From the NCBI RefSeq assembly GCF_900102695.1, contig NZ_FMVW01000001.1, forward strand, positions 434,001 to 498,000: DNA of 64,000 nt, in the 5' to 3' direction. The translations under genes were made by a program, and so were the position numbers. How positions within the stretch are numbered: the first letter of the stretch is position 1; each line of letters begins with the position of its first letter. A model generated the notes under the pieces. It saw only the letters and a list, made by a program, of their open reading frames with translations, was not told where the DNA came from and did no database searches. Shown here piece by piece: positions 10,861-61,485 of this stretch. Source of the DNA: Afifella marina DSM 2698 (GTDB lineage Bacteria > Pseudomonadota > Alphaproteobacteria > Rhizobiales > Afifellaceae).

Positions 10861-10998
10861 GCCAAGCGCATTTTGTTGCGCGTGGCGGCAAAAGGGTGCT
10901 GACAAACGGGTTGGACGCGCGTTGTGCGTTGACTCCGTCGCAGCGATGCCGATGATAAGCGGGGCAGGTCCAGTCGCGGCCTGCCCTGACGATACGCC

Positions 10999-11225
10999 GC
11001 ACGGGAGAGTTTCATCTCAGGCTTCAGGCTTGGTTTGAAACGCCGAAGGAGCAACCGCCCCGGAAACTCTCAGGCCACGGGACCGTGCCGGCGAGCGACA
11101 CTCTGGAAAGCAGCACCGGCTCTCTAATTGTAGGGAGAGTCGGCGGCTCACCGACGGAGTAACCGGCAGAGGTCCATGGCCTCAGATCGGGAATCTCTCA
11201 GGTCCTGCGACAGAGGGGGCGCGGA
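10999..11225 (+). promoter_or_regulatory. Tandem glycine riboswitch
   Basis: Two consecutive glycine aptamers lie ahead of gcvT. Aptamer I (about 10999-11118) contains CGGGAGAG, GCCGAAGGAGCAA, GGAAACTCTCAGG and a closing CTCTGGA. A short linker leads to aptamer II (about 11125-11225) with GGGAGAGT, CCGACGGAGTAACC, AATCTCTCAGGTCC and a closing CAGAGGGGG. These are the conserved blocks of the family. Together with the gcv operon downstream, this is expected to switch expression on when glycine is plentiful. No clear intrinsic terminator follows aptamer II, so control may act on translation of gcvT. Confidence 0.93.
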
Positions 11226-27172: not shown

Positions 27173-27393
27173 GCGGGCAATTCCTTGAGGATCGGCGTGG
27201 CGAGAAGGAGGGCTGAAACGGCGCGCACTCCGCGCAGACACTGCGTCAGCCGGCATCCGCAACACAAGAGCGCGTCAAACGAGGGCACCGGATGTCGGGC
27301 GTGGCCGCAGCGCCACACTGCCCGCTCACGAACGTCCGAGAACCCGACGAAGGCTTGTCAAATCGGCGAAAGAGGGGCATAAGCCGCGCCATT

Positions 27394-27441
27394 ATGACCA
27401 GCTTCGCTCTCTATCATCGCATGACCTCGGTCCGTTCGTAA
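27394..27441 (+). CDS. Possible 15-codon leader peptide (uORF)
   Basis: ATG at 27394 opens a 15-residue frame, MTSFALYHRMTSVRS, that stops with TAA at 27439-27441, exactly in the loop of the first of five hairpins leading to the ABC transporter gene. A purine-rich AGAGGGG lies 16 bases upstream, which is further than usual. A stop codon inside a regulatory hairpin is the layout of a leader-peptide attenuator, but translation is unproven and an open frame of this size can occur by chance. Confidence 0.35.
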   Translation: MTSFALYHRMTSVRS

Positions 27442-27533
27442 CGGACCGCGTCCGTAAGACGGACGCCTGAAGGGGCCGATTGCCCCGAGGTTAATGCCGG
27501 TCCCGCCGCGGCGGGACAATCGGTTCACCGATT
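27428..27533 (+). promoter_or_regulatory. Array of five perfect hairpins leading the ABC transporter gene
   Basis: Five perfect inverted repeats follow one another in about 105 bases. H1 27429-27447 is GGTCCGTTCGTAACGGACC. H2 27448-27466 is GCGTCCGTAAGACGGACGC. H3 27472-27486 has GGGGC/GCCCC arms. H4 27500-27517 is GTCCCGCCGCGGCGGGAC. H5 27518-27533 is AATCGGTTCACCGATT, then TTC. The 3' arm of H1 can also pair with the 5' arm of H2 (ACGGAC with GTCCGT), so alternative folds are possible. The transporter ATG is 17 bases after H5. The rest of the 27173-27549 gap holds only the possible leader peptide. Confidence 0.7.
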
Positions 27534-27549
27534 TTCTTGAGAGCTTTCC

Positions 27550-29481
27550 ATGTCTACCGCAGGCGCTTTGAGGCGCGGGCTTCGTGCCCTTCATTTCCGC
27601 AATTTCGTTCCGCTTCGGCATGCTGGCCACAGGTGGCCGGCTTGGCGTGCAGCCAACGGTCGGGTGGGATTGGCCGGCATCGGGCGCGTGAAGTTCAATC
27701 TTCGCGGCGATGTGTTCTCCGCGGTTCTGGGTTTTGCCTTCGCGCGCTGGCGCGAGCAGCCGGGGCGTGTCGCGCTGATTGCCGGTATGGTGACCCTCGC
27801 CACCTTGGCGGAAGTCTTCACGCCGCTTTTCGCTGGCCGCATCGTCGATGCAATCGCCGCAGGCGCCGCCGATCCAGACGCGAGGCATTCGGCGATCGTG
27901 GCGTTTCTCACGGTGACGGCTCTCGGCCTTGCCGCGGTCGGGCTCCGCCAGTTCGTCTTCTTCCAGATCATCACGCTGACCTTGAAGATGATCCGAGAGG
28001 TGGCTGAGGACGCCTTCCATCGCATCCAGCGCTTTTCGACCGATTGGCACGCCAACGCCTTTGCCGGTTCCACCGTGCGCAAGATGACGCGCGGCATGTG
28101 GGCGCTCGATCTGTTGAACGACACGCTTCTGATCGCGCTTCTGCCGTCCTTCGTGGTGCTTGTCGGCGCAACCGCGCTTCTCGGCGCCTTCTGGCCGGTG
28201 ATGGGTCTCGTCATCGGGTTGGGCGCGCTCGCCTATCTCGCCGTCACCGTCATCCTGTCGGTGGGCTGGGTCGCACCTGCGGCGACGCTCGCCAATGCCT
28301 GGGACACGCGGCTCGGCGGAGCGCTCGCCGATGCGGTGAGCTGCAATGCCGTCGTCAAGGCGTTTGGCGCGGAGGATCGCGAGGAGGCGGGTCTCACGCG
28401 CATCCTGGCGAAATGGCAGCACCGCACCAGGCGCACCTGGCGGCGCGGCACGGTCGGCGCGGGTGCCCAGGGCCTGATGATGGTCCTCATCCAGGCGGGC
28501 ATTCTGGGCGTTGCTCTCGTTCTCTGGCAGCGGGGCGCGGCGAGCGCCGGCGATGTCGCCTTCGTCCTCACCATGTTTTTCGTGGTGCAGGGGCATCTGC
28601 GCGATATCGGCATGCACATCCGCAACCTGCAGCGCTCCGTCAACGATCTCGAAGAGCTCGTCGCGCTGAACCGCGTGCCGATCGCGATCGCCGACCGGCC
28701 GGGCGCGGGTGAGGCGAAGATCGCCGCGGGGGAAATCGTCTTCGACCATGTCGATTTCCACTACGGCAATCACACGACGCCGCTTTACCGCGATTTCTCG
28801 GTAAAGATCGCGGCAGGCGAACGCGTCGGTCTCGTCGGTCATTCCGGATCGGGCAAGACGACCTTCGTCAAGCTGATTCAGCGGCTTTACGACGTGACGG
28901 GCGGCCAGATTCTGATCGACGGCGAGGATATCGCCGCCGTCAGGCAGGCCTCGCTTCGCCGGAAGATCGCCATCGTGCAGCAGGAGCCGGTGCTCTTTCA
29001 CCGCTCGCTCGCCGACAACATCGCCTATGGCCGCCCCGGCGCGTCGCAGGCGGAGATCGAGCAGGCGGCGCGGCTCGCCCATGCCGACGAGTTCATCTCG
29101 CGGCTGCCGGAGGGCTACCGCACCATGGTGGGCGAGCGCGGCATCAAGCTGTCGGGCGGCGAACGCCAGAGGGTGGCGCTGGCGCGCGCCTTCCTGGTCG
29201 ATGCGCCGATCCTGATCCTGGACGAGGCGACCTCGGCACTCGATTCCGAGAGCGAAGTGCTGATCCAGGACGCGATGGAGCATCTGATGGTCGGGCGCAC
29301 GACGCTCGTCATCGCCCATCGTCTGTCGACGGTGCGCGCACTCGATCGCATCCTGGTCTTCGACCGGGGGCAGATCGTGGAGGAGGGCGACCACGCCGCC
29401 CTCATCGGCCGCGAGGGGGGCATCTATCGCCGCCTTTTCGAACGCCAGGCGCTGGAGCTGACGAAAGGCCTCGTCATGTAA
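27550..29481 (+). CDS. ABC exporter half-transporter (membrane domain fused to ATPase)
   Basis: Type I ABC exporter that would work as a dimer, moving a lipid, drug or peptide out of the cytoplasm. The 643 residues hold about six membrane helices (roughly 65-340) and then the nucleotide-binding domain with Walker A GHSGSGKTT, Q-loop VQQEPVLF, signature LSGGERQRVALARAF, Walker B ILILDEATSALD and H-loop IAHRLSTV. The first 45 residues are poorly conserved and Arg-rich; a GTG around 27688 is an alternative start. Two SAM-fold genes follow. The unusual upstream hairpins suggest regulated expression. Substrate unknown. Confidence 0.9.
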   Translation: MSTAGALRRGLRALHFRNFVPLRHAGHRWPAWRAANGRVGLAGIGRVKFNLRGDVFSAVLGFAFARWREQPGRVALIAGMVTLATLAEVFTPLFAGRIVDAIAAGAADPDARHSAIVAFLTVTALGLAAVGLRQFVFFQIITLTLKMIREVAEDAFHRIQRFSTDWHANAFAGSTVRKMTRGMWALDLLNDTLLIALLPSFVVLVGATALLGAFWPVMGLVIGLGALAYLAVTVILSVGWVAPAATLANAWDTRLGGALADAVSCNAVVKAFGAEDREEAGLTRILAKWQHRTRRTWRRGTVGAGAQGLMMVLIQAGILGVALVLWQRGAASAGDVAFVLTMFFVVQGHLRDIGMHIRNLQRSVNDLEELVALNRVPIAIADRPGAGEAKIAAGEIVFDHVDFHYGNHTTPLYRDFSVKIAAGERVGLVGHSGSGKTTFVKLIQRLYDVTGGQILIDGEDIAAVRQASLRRKIAIVQQEPVLFHRSLADNIAYGRPGASQAEIEQAARLAHADEFISRLPEGYRTMVGERGIKLSGGERQRVALARAFLVDAPILILDEATSALDSESEVLIQDAMEHLMVGRTTLVIAHRLSTVRALDRILVFDRGQIVEEGDHAALIGREGGIYRRLFERQALELTKGLVM

Positions 29482-29599
29482 TCAGCGAGGGGGCTATAAT
29501 CCCCCTCGCACCACACTTCGCTGTGTCACGGCGACTTTGTTGCGCGCCGGTGCCACAGCAACGCCTTCCCTCGGCGGCCGGTTTGTGTTCGATGGGGCA

Positions 29600-31629: not shown

Positions 31630-31747
31630 GGGCTAGCATCGCCTGTTCTCTCCGCGTCGCGCGAAGGGGCGAGGGGGCGCATCTCTTCTGGATGCTGGGT
31701 AACTGCAGGGACGGACGCGCAGATACCAATCCGCGGCACAGCCCTTT

Positions 31748-31882
31748 CTTCTCCCCTCTGGGGAGAAGGTGGCGGGCGAAGCCCGCCGGATGAGGGGTGG
31801 CTTCACATCCCACGCTGATGCTGGTTTGTCCTCCACCCCTCACCGCCCGCTTCGCGGGCACCTCTCCCCAGAAGGGGAGAGG
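31748..31882. repeat. Inverted pair of REP-like intergenic palindromes
   Basis: Arm 1 (31748-31800) reads TTCTCCCCTCTGGGGAGAA, then GCGGGCGAAGCCCGC, then GATGAGGGGTGG. Arm 2 (31833-31882) is nearly its reverse complement, with GCCCGCTTCGCGGGC and CTCTCCCCAGAAGGGGAGAG. Each arm carries two internal hairpins. This is the style of intergenic palindrome common in Hyphomicrobiales. The rest of the 31630-32097 gap shows no gene. Confidence 0.75.
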
Positions 31883-33391: not shown

Positions 33392-34798
33392 TCAGCTCTC
33401 GGCGTCTCCGGAGGCTGAAGCGAGGCCGTATTCCTGCAGCTTGTAGAGGAGCGTGCGTCGGCTGATGCCGAGCTCGACGGCGGTATGGCTGCGATTGCCC
33501 GCGTTGCGCGTCAGCGCGTTGCGGATGACCTGGCTTTCGAACTCGTTGACGAGTTCGCGCAAGGAGCCCTTGCGCATGGTCGCGTCGAGGTTGCCGGTGT
33601 CGGCAAGCCCCTCGCTCGCCCCGGTGATGGAGGCGGGAAGGTCCTCGACCGTGATGACATTGGTCGTGCACATGACGACGGCATGTTCGATGGCATTGGC
33701 GAGTTCACGCACATTGCCGGGCCACGGCCAGGCGAGGAGGCAGTCCATCGCCGACGTATCGAAGCCGCGGATGACAAAATTGTTTTCCGCGCAGAAGCGC
33801 TCCAGAAAATGCTCCGAAAGCAGCCGCACATCTTCCGGCCGGTCGCGCAGCGGGATGGTCTCGAGCGTGACGACATTGAGGCGGAAATAGAGATCCTGCC
33901 GGAATGTCCCCTCCCGCACCATCTCCTGAAGGTTGCGGTTGGTTGCCGCCACGATGCGCACATCGGCTTTGATCGGCGTGCCGCCGCCGACGCGCTCGAA
34001 TTCGTGCTCCTGCAGAACCCGCAGCAGCTTCGCCTGCAGCCCCGGAGAAATCTCGCCGATCTCATCGAGGAAGAGGGTACCGTGTTCGGCCTGCTCGAAG
34101 CGGCCGCGATGCCGGCTTGCGGCGCCGGTAAAGGAACCCTTTTCGTGGCCGAAGAACTCGCTTTCGTGCAGCCCTTCCGGGATCGCGGCGCAATTCACCT
34201 TGACGAAGGGATGTGCCGCGCGGGCGCTGCCGTAATGGATGGCGGCGGCGACGAGCTCCTTGCCGGTGCCGCTCTCGCCCTGGATGAGCACGGTCGCATT
34301 GCTGCGCGCGACCTTGGCGATCGTCTGCCGCTGCTCGATCATGCGCGGATTGTTGGTCAAAATGCCTTCCGCGCCGTAGCGCTCGGACAATTCGCGGCGC
34401 AGCGAGACGATGTCGCGACGCATCGCCCGGATCTCCAGGATCCGACGCACCAGCATGCGGATCTCGTCGAGATCGAAGGGTTTCAGGACGTAATCGAAGG
34501 CGCCGTCCTTCATCGCCTGCACGGCGGTGCCGACTTCGGCGAAGGCCGTCATCAGTACGATCTGGGCGGTGCGGTCGATCTCCACGATGGCTTTGAGCGC
34601 ATCGAGGCCGTTCATGCGCGGCATGCGGATGTCGAGCAGCACCACATCCGCATGTCGGCGCCGAAAAGTCTCGACACCCTCCAGCCCATCCTTGGCCACG
34701 ACGACCTCAAGCCCTTCCTTCTGGAGGACGGCCTTGAGCATGTGGCAGATGGCCTGGTCGTCGTCGACGACGAGAGCAACGGGTGTGGAATTGGTCAT
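33392..34798 (-). CDS. atoC: Sigma-54-dependent response regulator (AtoC-like)
   Basis: NtrC-family activator. The 468 residues are a receiver (about 5-120; phospho-acceptor Asp56 in VVLLDIRMPRMNG), an AAA+ domain (about 145-380; Walker A GESGTGKE, Walker B TLFLDEIGEI, and the sigma-54-contacting loop as GSFTGA rather than GAFTGA), and a C-terminal Fis-type helix-turn-helix ending NRSHTAVELGISRRTLLYKL. It overlaps atoS by 4 bases and is divergent from the atoDAEB genes, which carry a sigma-54 promoter. It should therefore be their activator. The AtoC name rests on that context. Confidence 0.92.
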   Translation of the reverse strand: MTNSTPVALVVDDDQAICHMLKAVLQKEGLEVVVAKDGLEGVETFRRRHADVVLLDIRMPRMNGLDALKAIVEIDRTAQIVLMTAFAEVGTAVQAMKDGAFDYVLKPFDLDEIRMLVRRILEIRAMRRDIVSLRRELSERYGAEGILTNNPRMIEQRQTIAKVARSNATVLIQGESGTGKELVAAAIHYGSARAAHPFVKVNCAAIPEGLHESEFFGHEKGSFTGAASRHRGRFEQAEHGTLFLDEIGEISPGLQAKLLRVLQEHEFERVGGGTPIKADVRIVAATNRNLQEMVREGTFRQDLYFRLNVVTLETIPLRDRPEDVRLLSEHFLERFCAENNFVIRGFDTSAMDCLLAWPWPGNVRELANAIEHAVVMCTTNVITVEDLPASITGASEGLADTGNLDATMRKGSLRELVNEFESQVIRNALTRNAGNRSHTAVELGISRRTLLYKLQEYGLASASGDAES

Positions 34799-60955: not shown

Positions 60956-61068
60956 CTTGAAGGTCCATTCCGCAGTTGCGGTGTTGAAAGTGTGGGCCTC
61001 GTAGACTTAAAGCGCTCTTAACAGCAATCCGAAATCGCTACCTGCGGCGCTTCGCGCAACACTTTGTT

Positions 61069-61485
61069 TTAGTTCTCGGTTTCGACGAGAGGTGAAACGA
61101 TCTGGGCGTCGGATTGCATGCGCCTCAAAACGTCAATCGAGGCGTGCGCGAAGTCCTTCAATTCCTCGTCGATCGCCGCCTCGGCCTCATAATGGAAGCC
61201 GTCATCGTCGTGGCTGACGGCGATGAGGACATCGCTCTCTCCGTCGGGCAGACGCACCATCGCCTTCTCCGTGGCCTCTCCGTCGCCGGAAAAACTCGGC
61301 AGCACGAAAAGGAGATCGCCACCTGACGTCTCGGCTGCGTGGCGCACGAGATCGATCCACGAGGCGGTGTCGCCGTCGGCCATGTCGAGAGCCATTTCGA
61401 AATCCAATTGCGGCAGAGAGAAACTGTCTTCGCGTTTGTCTTTGCCGTTGCCGGCTTCGATGCCGGCGAGGTTTTCTTGAGCCAT
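61069..61485 (-). CDS. Acidic hypothetical protein
   Basis: 138-residue, strongly acidic soluble protein with no recognised family. It includes LPQLDFEMALDMADGDTASW and DLLFVLPSFSGDGEATEKAM; the C-terminal part is DELKDFAHASIDVLRRMQ. It has no signal or membrane segment. Two small genes of unknown function lie here between the aminotransferase and the acyl-CoA ligase. Confidence 0.6.
   Translation of the reverse strand: MAQENLAGIEAGNGKDKREDSFSLPQLDFEMALDMADGDTASWIDLVRHAAETSGGDLLFVLPSFSGDGEATEKAMVRLPDGESDVLIAVSHDDDGFHYEAEAAIDEELKDFAHASIDVLRRMQSDAQIVSPLVETEN

Follow-up and report, generated by a model that had tools for sequence, protein, structure and literature searches.

An ABC exporter of 643 amino acids (ABC_membrane and ABC_tran domain matches) is encoded at 27550-29481 on the plus strand of the window, the whole 64,000-nucleotide stretch of DNA analysed here; among the best 60 of 260 PDB sequence matches, its closest relatives are general ABCB-type exporters. 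Directly upstream lies an element (27391-27549, plus strand) that folding and a three-species comparison mark out as a candidate structured mRNA leader. Five congeneric genomes were compared, including the window's own (G000), and the exporter is carried by three of them (G000, G001 and G003).

The hairpin array and its computed fold

The element contains five hairpins on the plus strand within 105 nt, with stems of 5-8 bp and loops of 3-5: H1 (27429-27447, 8 bp), H2 (27448-27466, 8 bp), H3 (27472-27486, 5 bp), H4 (27500-27517, 7 bp) and H5 (27518-27533, 6 bp). All five stems are perfect; H5, which is weak, ends 16 nt before the exporter ATG at 27550. A sequence-only reading of this DNA had described five perfect inverted repeats at 27429-27533, 16 bases before the ATG, and all of the stems lie where it placed them. 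Dinucleotide shuffles of this segment (n = 3000) produced at most three such hairpins, against the five observed, and a scan of 3195 positions across the window, in steps of 20 bases, reached a maximum of four hairpins per 105 nt at 27441, which overlaps the leader element itself.

Folding z-scores for the leader were -6.0 (200 shuffles), -6.2 (100 shuffles) and -7.3 (40 shuffles, start at 27391). When 639 evenly spaced grid windows were ranked, the one nearest to the leader (27401, z -5.4) came fourth, behind those at 31701, 61001 and 34601, so the leader is among the most structured stretches without being clearly the top one. The minus strand folds about equally well (z -5.7), and folding alone therefore cannot assign the strand.

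A palindromic intergenic repeat occupies 31690-31870 (grid window 31701, z -6.2), and about seven places in its own genome, on both strands, account for nine more match rows (E up to 0.001). The strongly folded stretch at 61001-61160 (z -6.0) is single-copy in the genome, and another strongly folded stretch lies at 34601-34760 (z -5.6).

Two helices beyond H1-H5, both absent from the sequence-only reading, appear in the minimum-energy fold of the leader. The first, P1, pairs 27419-27428 with 27487-27497 on the plus strand and encloses H1, H2 and H3. The second, P0, pairs GCUCUC (27406-27411, plus strand) with GAGAGC (27539-27544, plus strand; -11 to -6 relative to the exporter start), and so closes the whole leader by joining the exporter start region to the 5′ part of the RNA, while the exporter AUG itself stays mostly open. 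Both arms of P0 are invariant in the three species, with a pairing probability of 0.99-1.00 in each and a seventh pair in G003; the helix is only moderately unusual, as in 83 of 1000 cases a shuffled version of the 5′ 28 nt pairs no less strongly with this region. Flanking P0, 15 nt at the 5′ end and 8 nt at the 3′ end (UUUCCAUG) are unpaired in the computed folds of all three species.

An Rfam search of the leader returned no family at the gathering cut-off, in agreement with the view that it corresponds to no described motif, and a lax search gave weak matches only (top score 20.6 bits against a cut-off of 50; best E 1.1). A literature search likewise found no title or abstract opening that describes the leader. 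Elsewhere in the window, tandem glycine riboswitch aptamers at 10992-11217 (plus strand) score above the Rfam cut-off, the only such family in the window.

A probable leader common to three congeners

Leader and exporter coincide in their distribution: the three genomes that carry the exporter also carry the leader (3/3), beside the same neighbour genes, with exporter identities of 98% and 95% between G000 and the other two carriers (G001 and G003) and leaders 92% identical to that of the window. The remaining congeners, G002 and G004, have no exporter ortholog (best-scoring matches 40% and 38%) and no leader, and their covariance-model matches are at chance level only (E 3.3 and 9.2).

One common fold was computed for all three leaders, so that the conservation of stems anticipated in relatives is indeed found, in three close sequences only. 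In their alignment 149 of 149 pair cells are standard, and one further cell is a gap. One P1 pair has changed on both sides (U-A, U-G and C-G across the three species) and another P1 pair appears as C-G or U-G; beyond the two-sided change, three pairs have changed on one side and still pair, and the remaining 46 are invariant in letters. Variable columns are scarcer in paired positions (6 of 100, including the gap) than in unpaired ones (17 of 62; Fisher p = 3e-4); a shuffle control on three rows is without power, with 333 of 500 shuffles reaching the observed values. As the pairs of P0, H2, H3 and H4 are all invariant, only P1, H1 and H5 are tested by change. H4 is a perfect DNA palindrome in G000 and not in G001 or G003, where the changes sit in its loop.

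The cells that can tell the strands apart comprise eight G-U cells (in five pairs) and no A-C cell on the plus strand, which favours a plus-strand RNA; among these, the single G-U pair of G000 is not independent, because the structure was derived from the plus-strand fold of G000. Since the stems are spared from change, the pairs are standard and the strand-telling cells are all G-U, the element very probably forms a structured leader on the plus-strand mRNA of the ABC exporter, common to three related species, and a regulatory role is likely. Of the structured-leader attenuator originally proposed ahead of the exporter, the structured leader is thus borne out by the three-species comparison, and the details of attenuation, taken up below, are not. 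Even without a switch, this would be a conserved structured leader below every Rfam cut-off.

As far as searched, the leader appears restricted to three species of one genus. A covariance model run under stricter filters against 297 genomes of the order, an even sample of a larger group, gave only three matches, all in congeners. Among 11 family genomes, with E up to 10, some match appeared in eight; the best outside the three leaders (G008, 20.8 bits, E 0.05) has many broken pairs and lies inside a coding frame, which we take to be PrmA-like. In the same genome, the two halves of a presumably PrmA-like frame at positions 965-1771 of L142 (G008:C94) appear on opposite, facing strands, perhaps an assembly fold-back.

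No covariance-model match was found upstream of 12 more distant exporter relatives (L031-L041 and L109), which share 60-70% exporter identity in the best segment; this search drew on 15 sources, of which three were overlapping stretches from G006, G010 and G007. The two matches in the relatives' sources (E 2.9 and 6.3) both lie below the gene, and the upstream z-scores range from +0.06 to -2.76 (for L039, in which no start was found, the match edge was used). Apart from the three leaders, no BLASTN match covers more than 38 nt of the query, and the 19-base H1 pattern has no exact match in viral contigs. Three of the relatives (L037, L038 and L040; two Microvirga and one Ancylobacter) carry upstream of the exporter relative, as seen by eye, AGGAGAGG followed by a GC-rich hairpin a short way ahead of the start, an element different from the window's leader.

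The distribution of the leader is paralleled by that of the exporter's N-terminus, whose first ~46 residues match well only in the three congeners among the 11 family genomes. Nucleotide differences within codons 1-46 favour third positions in the three comparisons (8/12, 6/11 and 6/7), and on this ground the ATG at 27550 is the likely exporter start; a GTG start at codon 47 (27688) was rejected, the codon being GTA in G003. Because the leader and the N-terminal ~46 residues are both limited to the three congeners, they look like a single lineage-specific new 5′ end. Matches to more distant relatives begin at about residue 38-60, and 27550-27687 would thus encode a genus-specific N-terminal extension. 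Within it, a hairpin in the 5′ coding region of the exporter (27625-27638) reads GGCCAC/GTGGCC in G000 and GGCCGC/GCGGCC in G001 and G003; its changes are clustered and keep the palindrome, which could reflect a template-switch mutation or RNA structure.

The presumed RNA 5′ end, the candidate uORF and simulated ribosome occupancy

A promoter-like site on the plus strand, TTGTCA-N17-CATAAG (27355-27360 and 27378-27383), was recognised by eye; its two hexamers are both identical in all three congeners, and conservation to G003 rises at this site. CATAAG ends 7 bases before 27391, a base that reads A, G and A in the three species, and from this promoter-like site, recognised by eye and not by scanner, we infer an RNA start near 27391, three bases before the ATG of a candidate uORF. 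A consensus promoter scanner, whose rule requires a T at position 6 of the -10 hexamer, lists no promoter here; for S. meliloti, the sigma-70 -10 region is described as poorly conserved (PMC3616915).

The candidate uORF (27394-27441, plus strand) comprises 15 codons, MTSFALYHRMTSVRS, with its ATG, frame and TAA present in all three species. It would be near-leaderless, its ATG at about +4, if the RNA starts at 27391; in PMC3616915 leaderless denotes a transcript starting exactly at the AUG, and 171 such transcripts were mapped in S. meliloti. The peptide is identical in G003 and reads MTRFALYLSMIPVRS in G001, where 5 of 15 residues differ; this speaks against an arrest peptide that depends on its sequence. 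Conservation of the uORF thus holds for start, frame and stop in all three species and for the peptide only between G000 and G003. The frame contains no Trp codon and no run of codons for one amino acid. It had been described as ending with its TAA in the loop of H1: the frame is as described, but only the first T of the stop codon is in the loop, and the two A are in the 3′ arm. Only one of 24 columns varies across the three species at 27392-27415, and none of the three columns in the H1 loop, which holds that first base of the stop, against 9 of 16 in the loops of H2-H5, a comparison of few columns.

The effect of a ribosome was mimicked by holding stretches unpaired in the computed ensemble, in eight states for each of three species (24 in total). 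When the first 21 nt were kept single-stranded, the P0 3′ arm was on average paired at only 0.29 in G000, 0.65 in G001 and 0.20 in G003, down from 1.00. Other 5′ blocks freed the start region less evenly, because alternative pairings step in: blocking the first 18 nt gave 0.62/0.65/0.53, and the first 33 nt 0.45/0.28/0.43, while a block over columns 10-40 gave 0.29/0.30/0.37 and one over columns 16-46 gave 0.73/0.25/0.70. With 27424-27452 or 27426-27453 held, as by a ribosome at the uORF stop, the 3′ arm stayed at 1.00 in all three species. Given that 5′ blocks open P0 in this computation and a stop-site block does not, the uORF, if relevant, more likely acts by way of its opening codons and P0 than by way of its stop and H1.

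We tentatively favour, at rather low confidence, a model in which the leader would set exporter translation through P0, gated by a ribosome on the near-leaderless uORF. Transcription would start near 27391, and in the default fold P0 would pair the stretch immediately before the exporter AUG with the mRNA 5′ end, resulting in low initiation. A ribosome loading at the near-leaderless uORF AUG (27394), above all one held in the first codons, would cover the P0 5′ arm (uORF codons 5-6), whereupon P0 would open and the exporter start would be exposed; slow or stalled early uORF translation would accordingly give more exporter synthesis, and no induction would be expected from a ribosome that has reached the stop. 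Several observations count against this model. The uORF peptide is changed in G001, and the uORF ATG would lie at about +4 and not exactly at the RNA start. The Shine-Dalgarno match is poor: anti-Shine-Dalgarno pairing before the exporter AUG is -2.7, -2.7 and -3.7 kcal/mol in the three species, whereas random 22-mers have a median of -4.6 and seven other start sites, taken from the ORF list, range from -5.2 to -11.0. The shuffle result for P0 and the uneven opening under other 5′ blocks also weigh against it.

If true, the P0 model would describe a peptide-sequence-independent sensor of early translation within the exporter mRNA, and would offer a direct test of downstream gene control by near-leaderless uORFs in Alphaproteobacteria. 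That it represents a new class of translational switch, in which the first codons of a near-leaderless uORF form one strand of P0 and so mask the exporter start, slowing of the first ribosome induces whatever the peptide, and the hairpin domain is a spacer holding the two ends together, is rather unlikely.

Several known systems resemble parts of this arrangement. The msrD gene encodes an ABC-F translation factor, whereas the gene in the window encodes an exporter. In macrolide-type translation attenuators, stalling of a ribosome on a short leader ORF releases expression of the downstream gene, much as would happen here; the present leader differs in its fold and in having no conserved arrest peptide. 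One such attenuator is that of msrD (PMC10314930). In mycobacteria, leaderless uORFs are reported to regulate the genes below them (Canestrari et al., as described in PMC9031893). Like these, the window's leader has a candidate short ORF close to the RNA 5′ end, and its early translation would set expression of the following gene. Unlike in those attenuators, the uORF here has no run of codons for a single amino acid, and the link to the gene would be the long-range helix P0. Closer in phylogeny, S. meliloti trpL/rnTrpL provides a leaderless leader-peptide ORF in an alphaproteobacterium, like the candidate uORF; trpL belongs to a tryptophan attenuator (PMC10117765), while the leader here has no conserved terminator that could be found and a uORF without a Trp codon. 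The trpL peptide of S. meliloti, peTrpL, acts on a multidrug resistance operon (PMC7298713).

Alternative readings of the leader

Instead of responding to translation of the uORF, which would then be irrelevant, the leader could sense a ligand or protein, as a riboswitch or through protein-binding hairpins, with the folded domain opening or closing P0. We consider this possible, if unlikely. The compact multi-branch fold common to the three species would suit it, as would the near-identity of H1 and H2, which could form a doubled binding site, and the difference of the uORF peptide in G001. The absence of any Rfam match at the gathering cut-off (best E 1.1 in the lax search) and the confinement to one genus speak against it, as does the variation in 9 of 16 loop columns of H2-H5, which is unlike the cores of known riboswitches.

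It is unlikely, too, that the leader is a constitutive structural bypass, whose fold would bring the single-stranded 5′ end to the exporter AUG and serve as a standby site and mRNA stabiliser without any switch. This would fit the unpaired 15 nt and 8 nt beside P0 in all three computed folds, the near-invariance of 27392-27415 and the weak Shine-Dalgarno sequence before the exporter; in S. meliloti, moreover, translation of metA starts 74 nt below a needed Shine-Dalgarno sequence (PMC9373788). However, standby loading is here a prediction of the model, and P0 would cover bases that a 30S subunit presumably contacts.

The sequence-only reading had itself proposed a classic leader-peptide attenuator, in which a ribosome sitting at the uORF stop prevents H1 from forming, the 3′ arm of H1 pairs with the 5′ arm of H2, and H5 acts as a terminator or hides the start; this now appears very improbable. 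The uORF stop does overlap H1 in all three species, and the H1 and H2 arms (ACGGAC/GTCCGT) are complementary, but the mutually exclusive folds expected of them did not materialise: the alternative hairpin has a probability of at most 0.04 in all 24 states, including those with a ribosome parked at the stop, in which P0 and the start region remain paired. H5 is itself weak, with a computed energy of only -5.1 to -5.5 kcal/mol, and the sequence of its U run, UUUUCUU in the window, reads UUUCAAG in G003, which together make a conserved terminator unlikely; a terminator scan lists none at H5, its sole terminator-like site being at 27572, inside the coding region.

ROSE-type RNA thermometers have several stem-loops in a row and the start region in a helix, as here. 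The leader has no Rfam match at the cut-off, its gene is not a heat-shock gene, and a thermometer was rejected on P0 pairing, which by computation only is still 0.97-0.99 at 55 °C.

Lastly, it is hard to credit that this is merely palindrome-rich intergenic DNA without RNA function (a mobile palindromic repeat or template-switch hairpins): the clustered, palindrome-keeping changes in the nearby coding-region hairpin are as template switching could give, and another palindromic repeat is present in the genome, but in the leader loops diverge while stems stay, G-U cells occur without A-C, similarity to G003 increases where the promoter-like site lies, and, contrary to a dispersed repeat family, the genome holds a single full copy, its 11 other-site matches being at most 24 nt long. 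The possibility, raised with the sequence-only reading, that the leader belongs to a repeat scattered in the genome is thereby set aside.

At the other end of the gene, just past the exporter stop, a 9-bp hairpin without a U run (GCGAGGGGG/CCCCCTCGC; 29485-29509) was recognised by eye.
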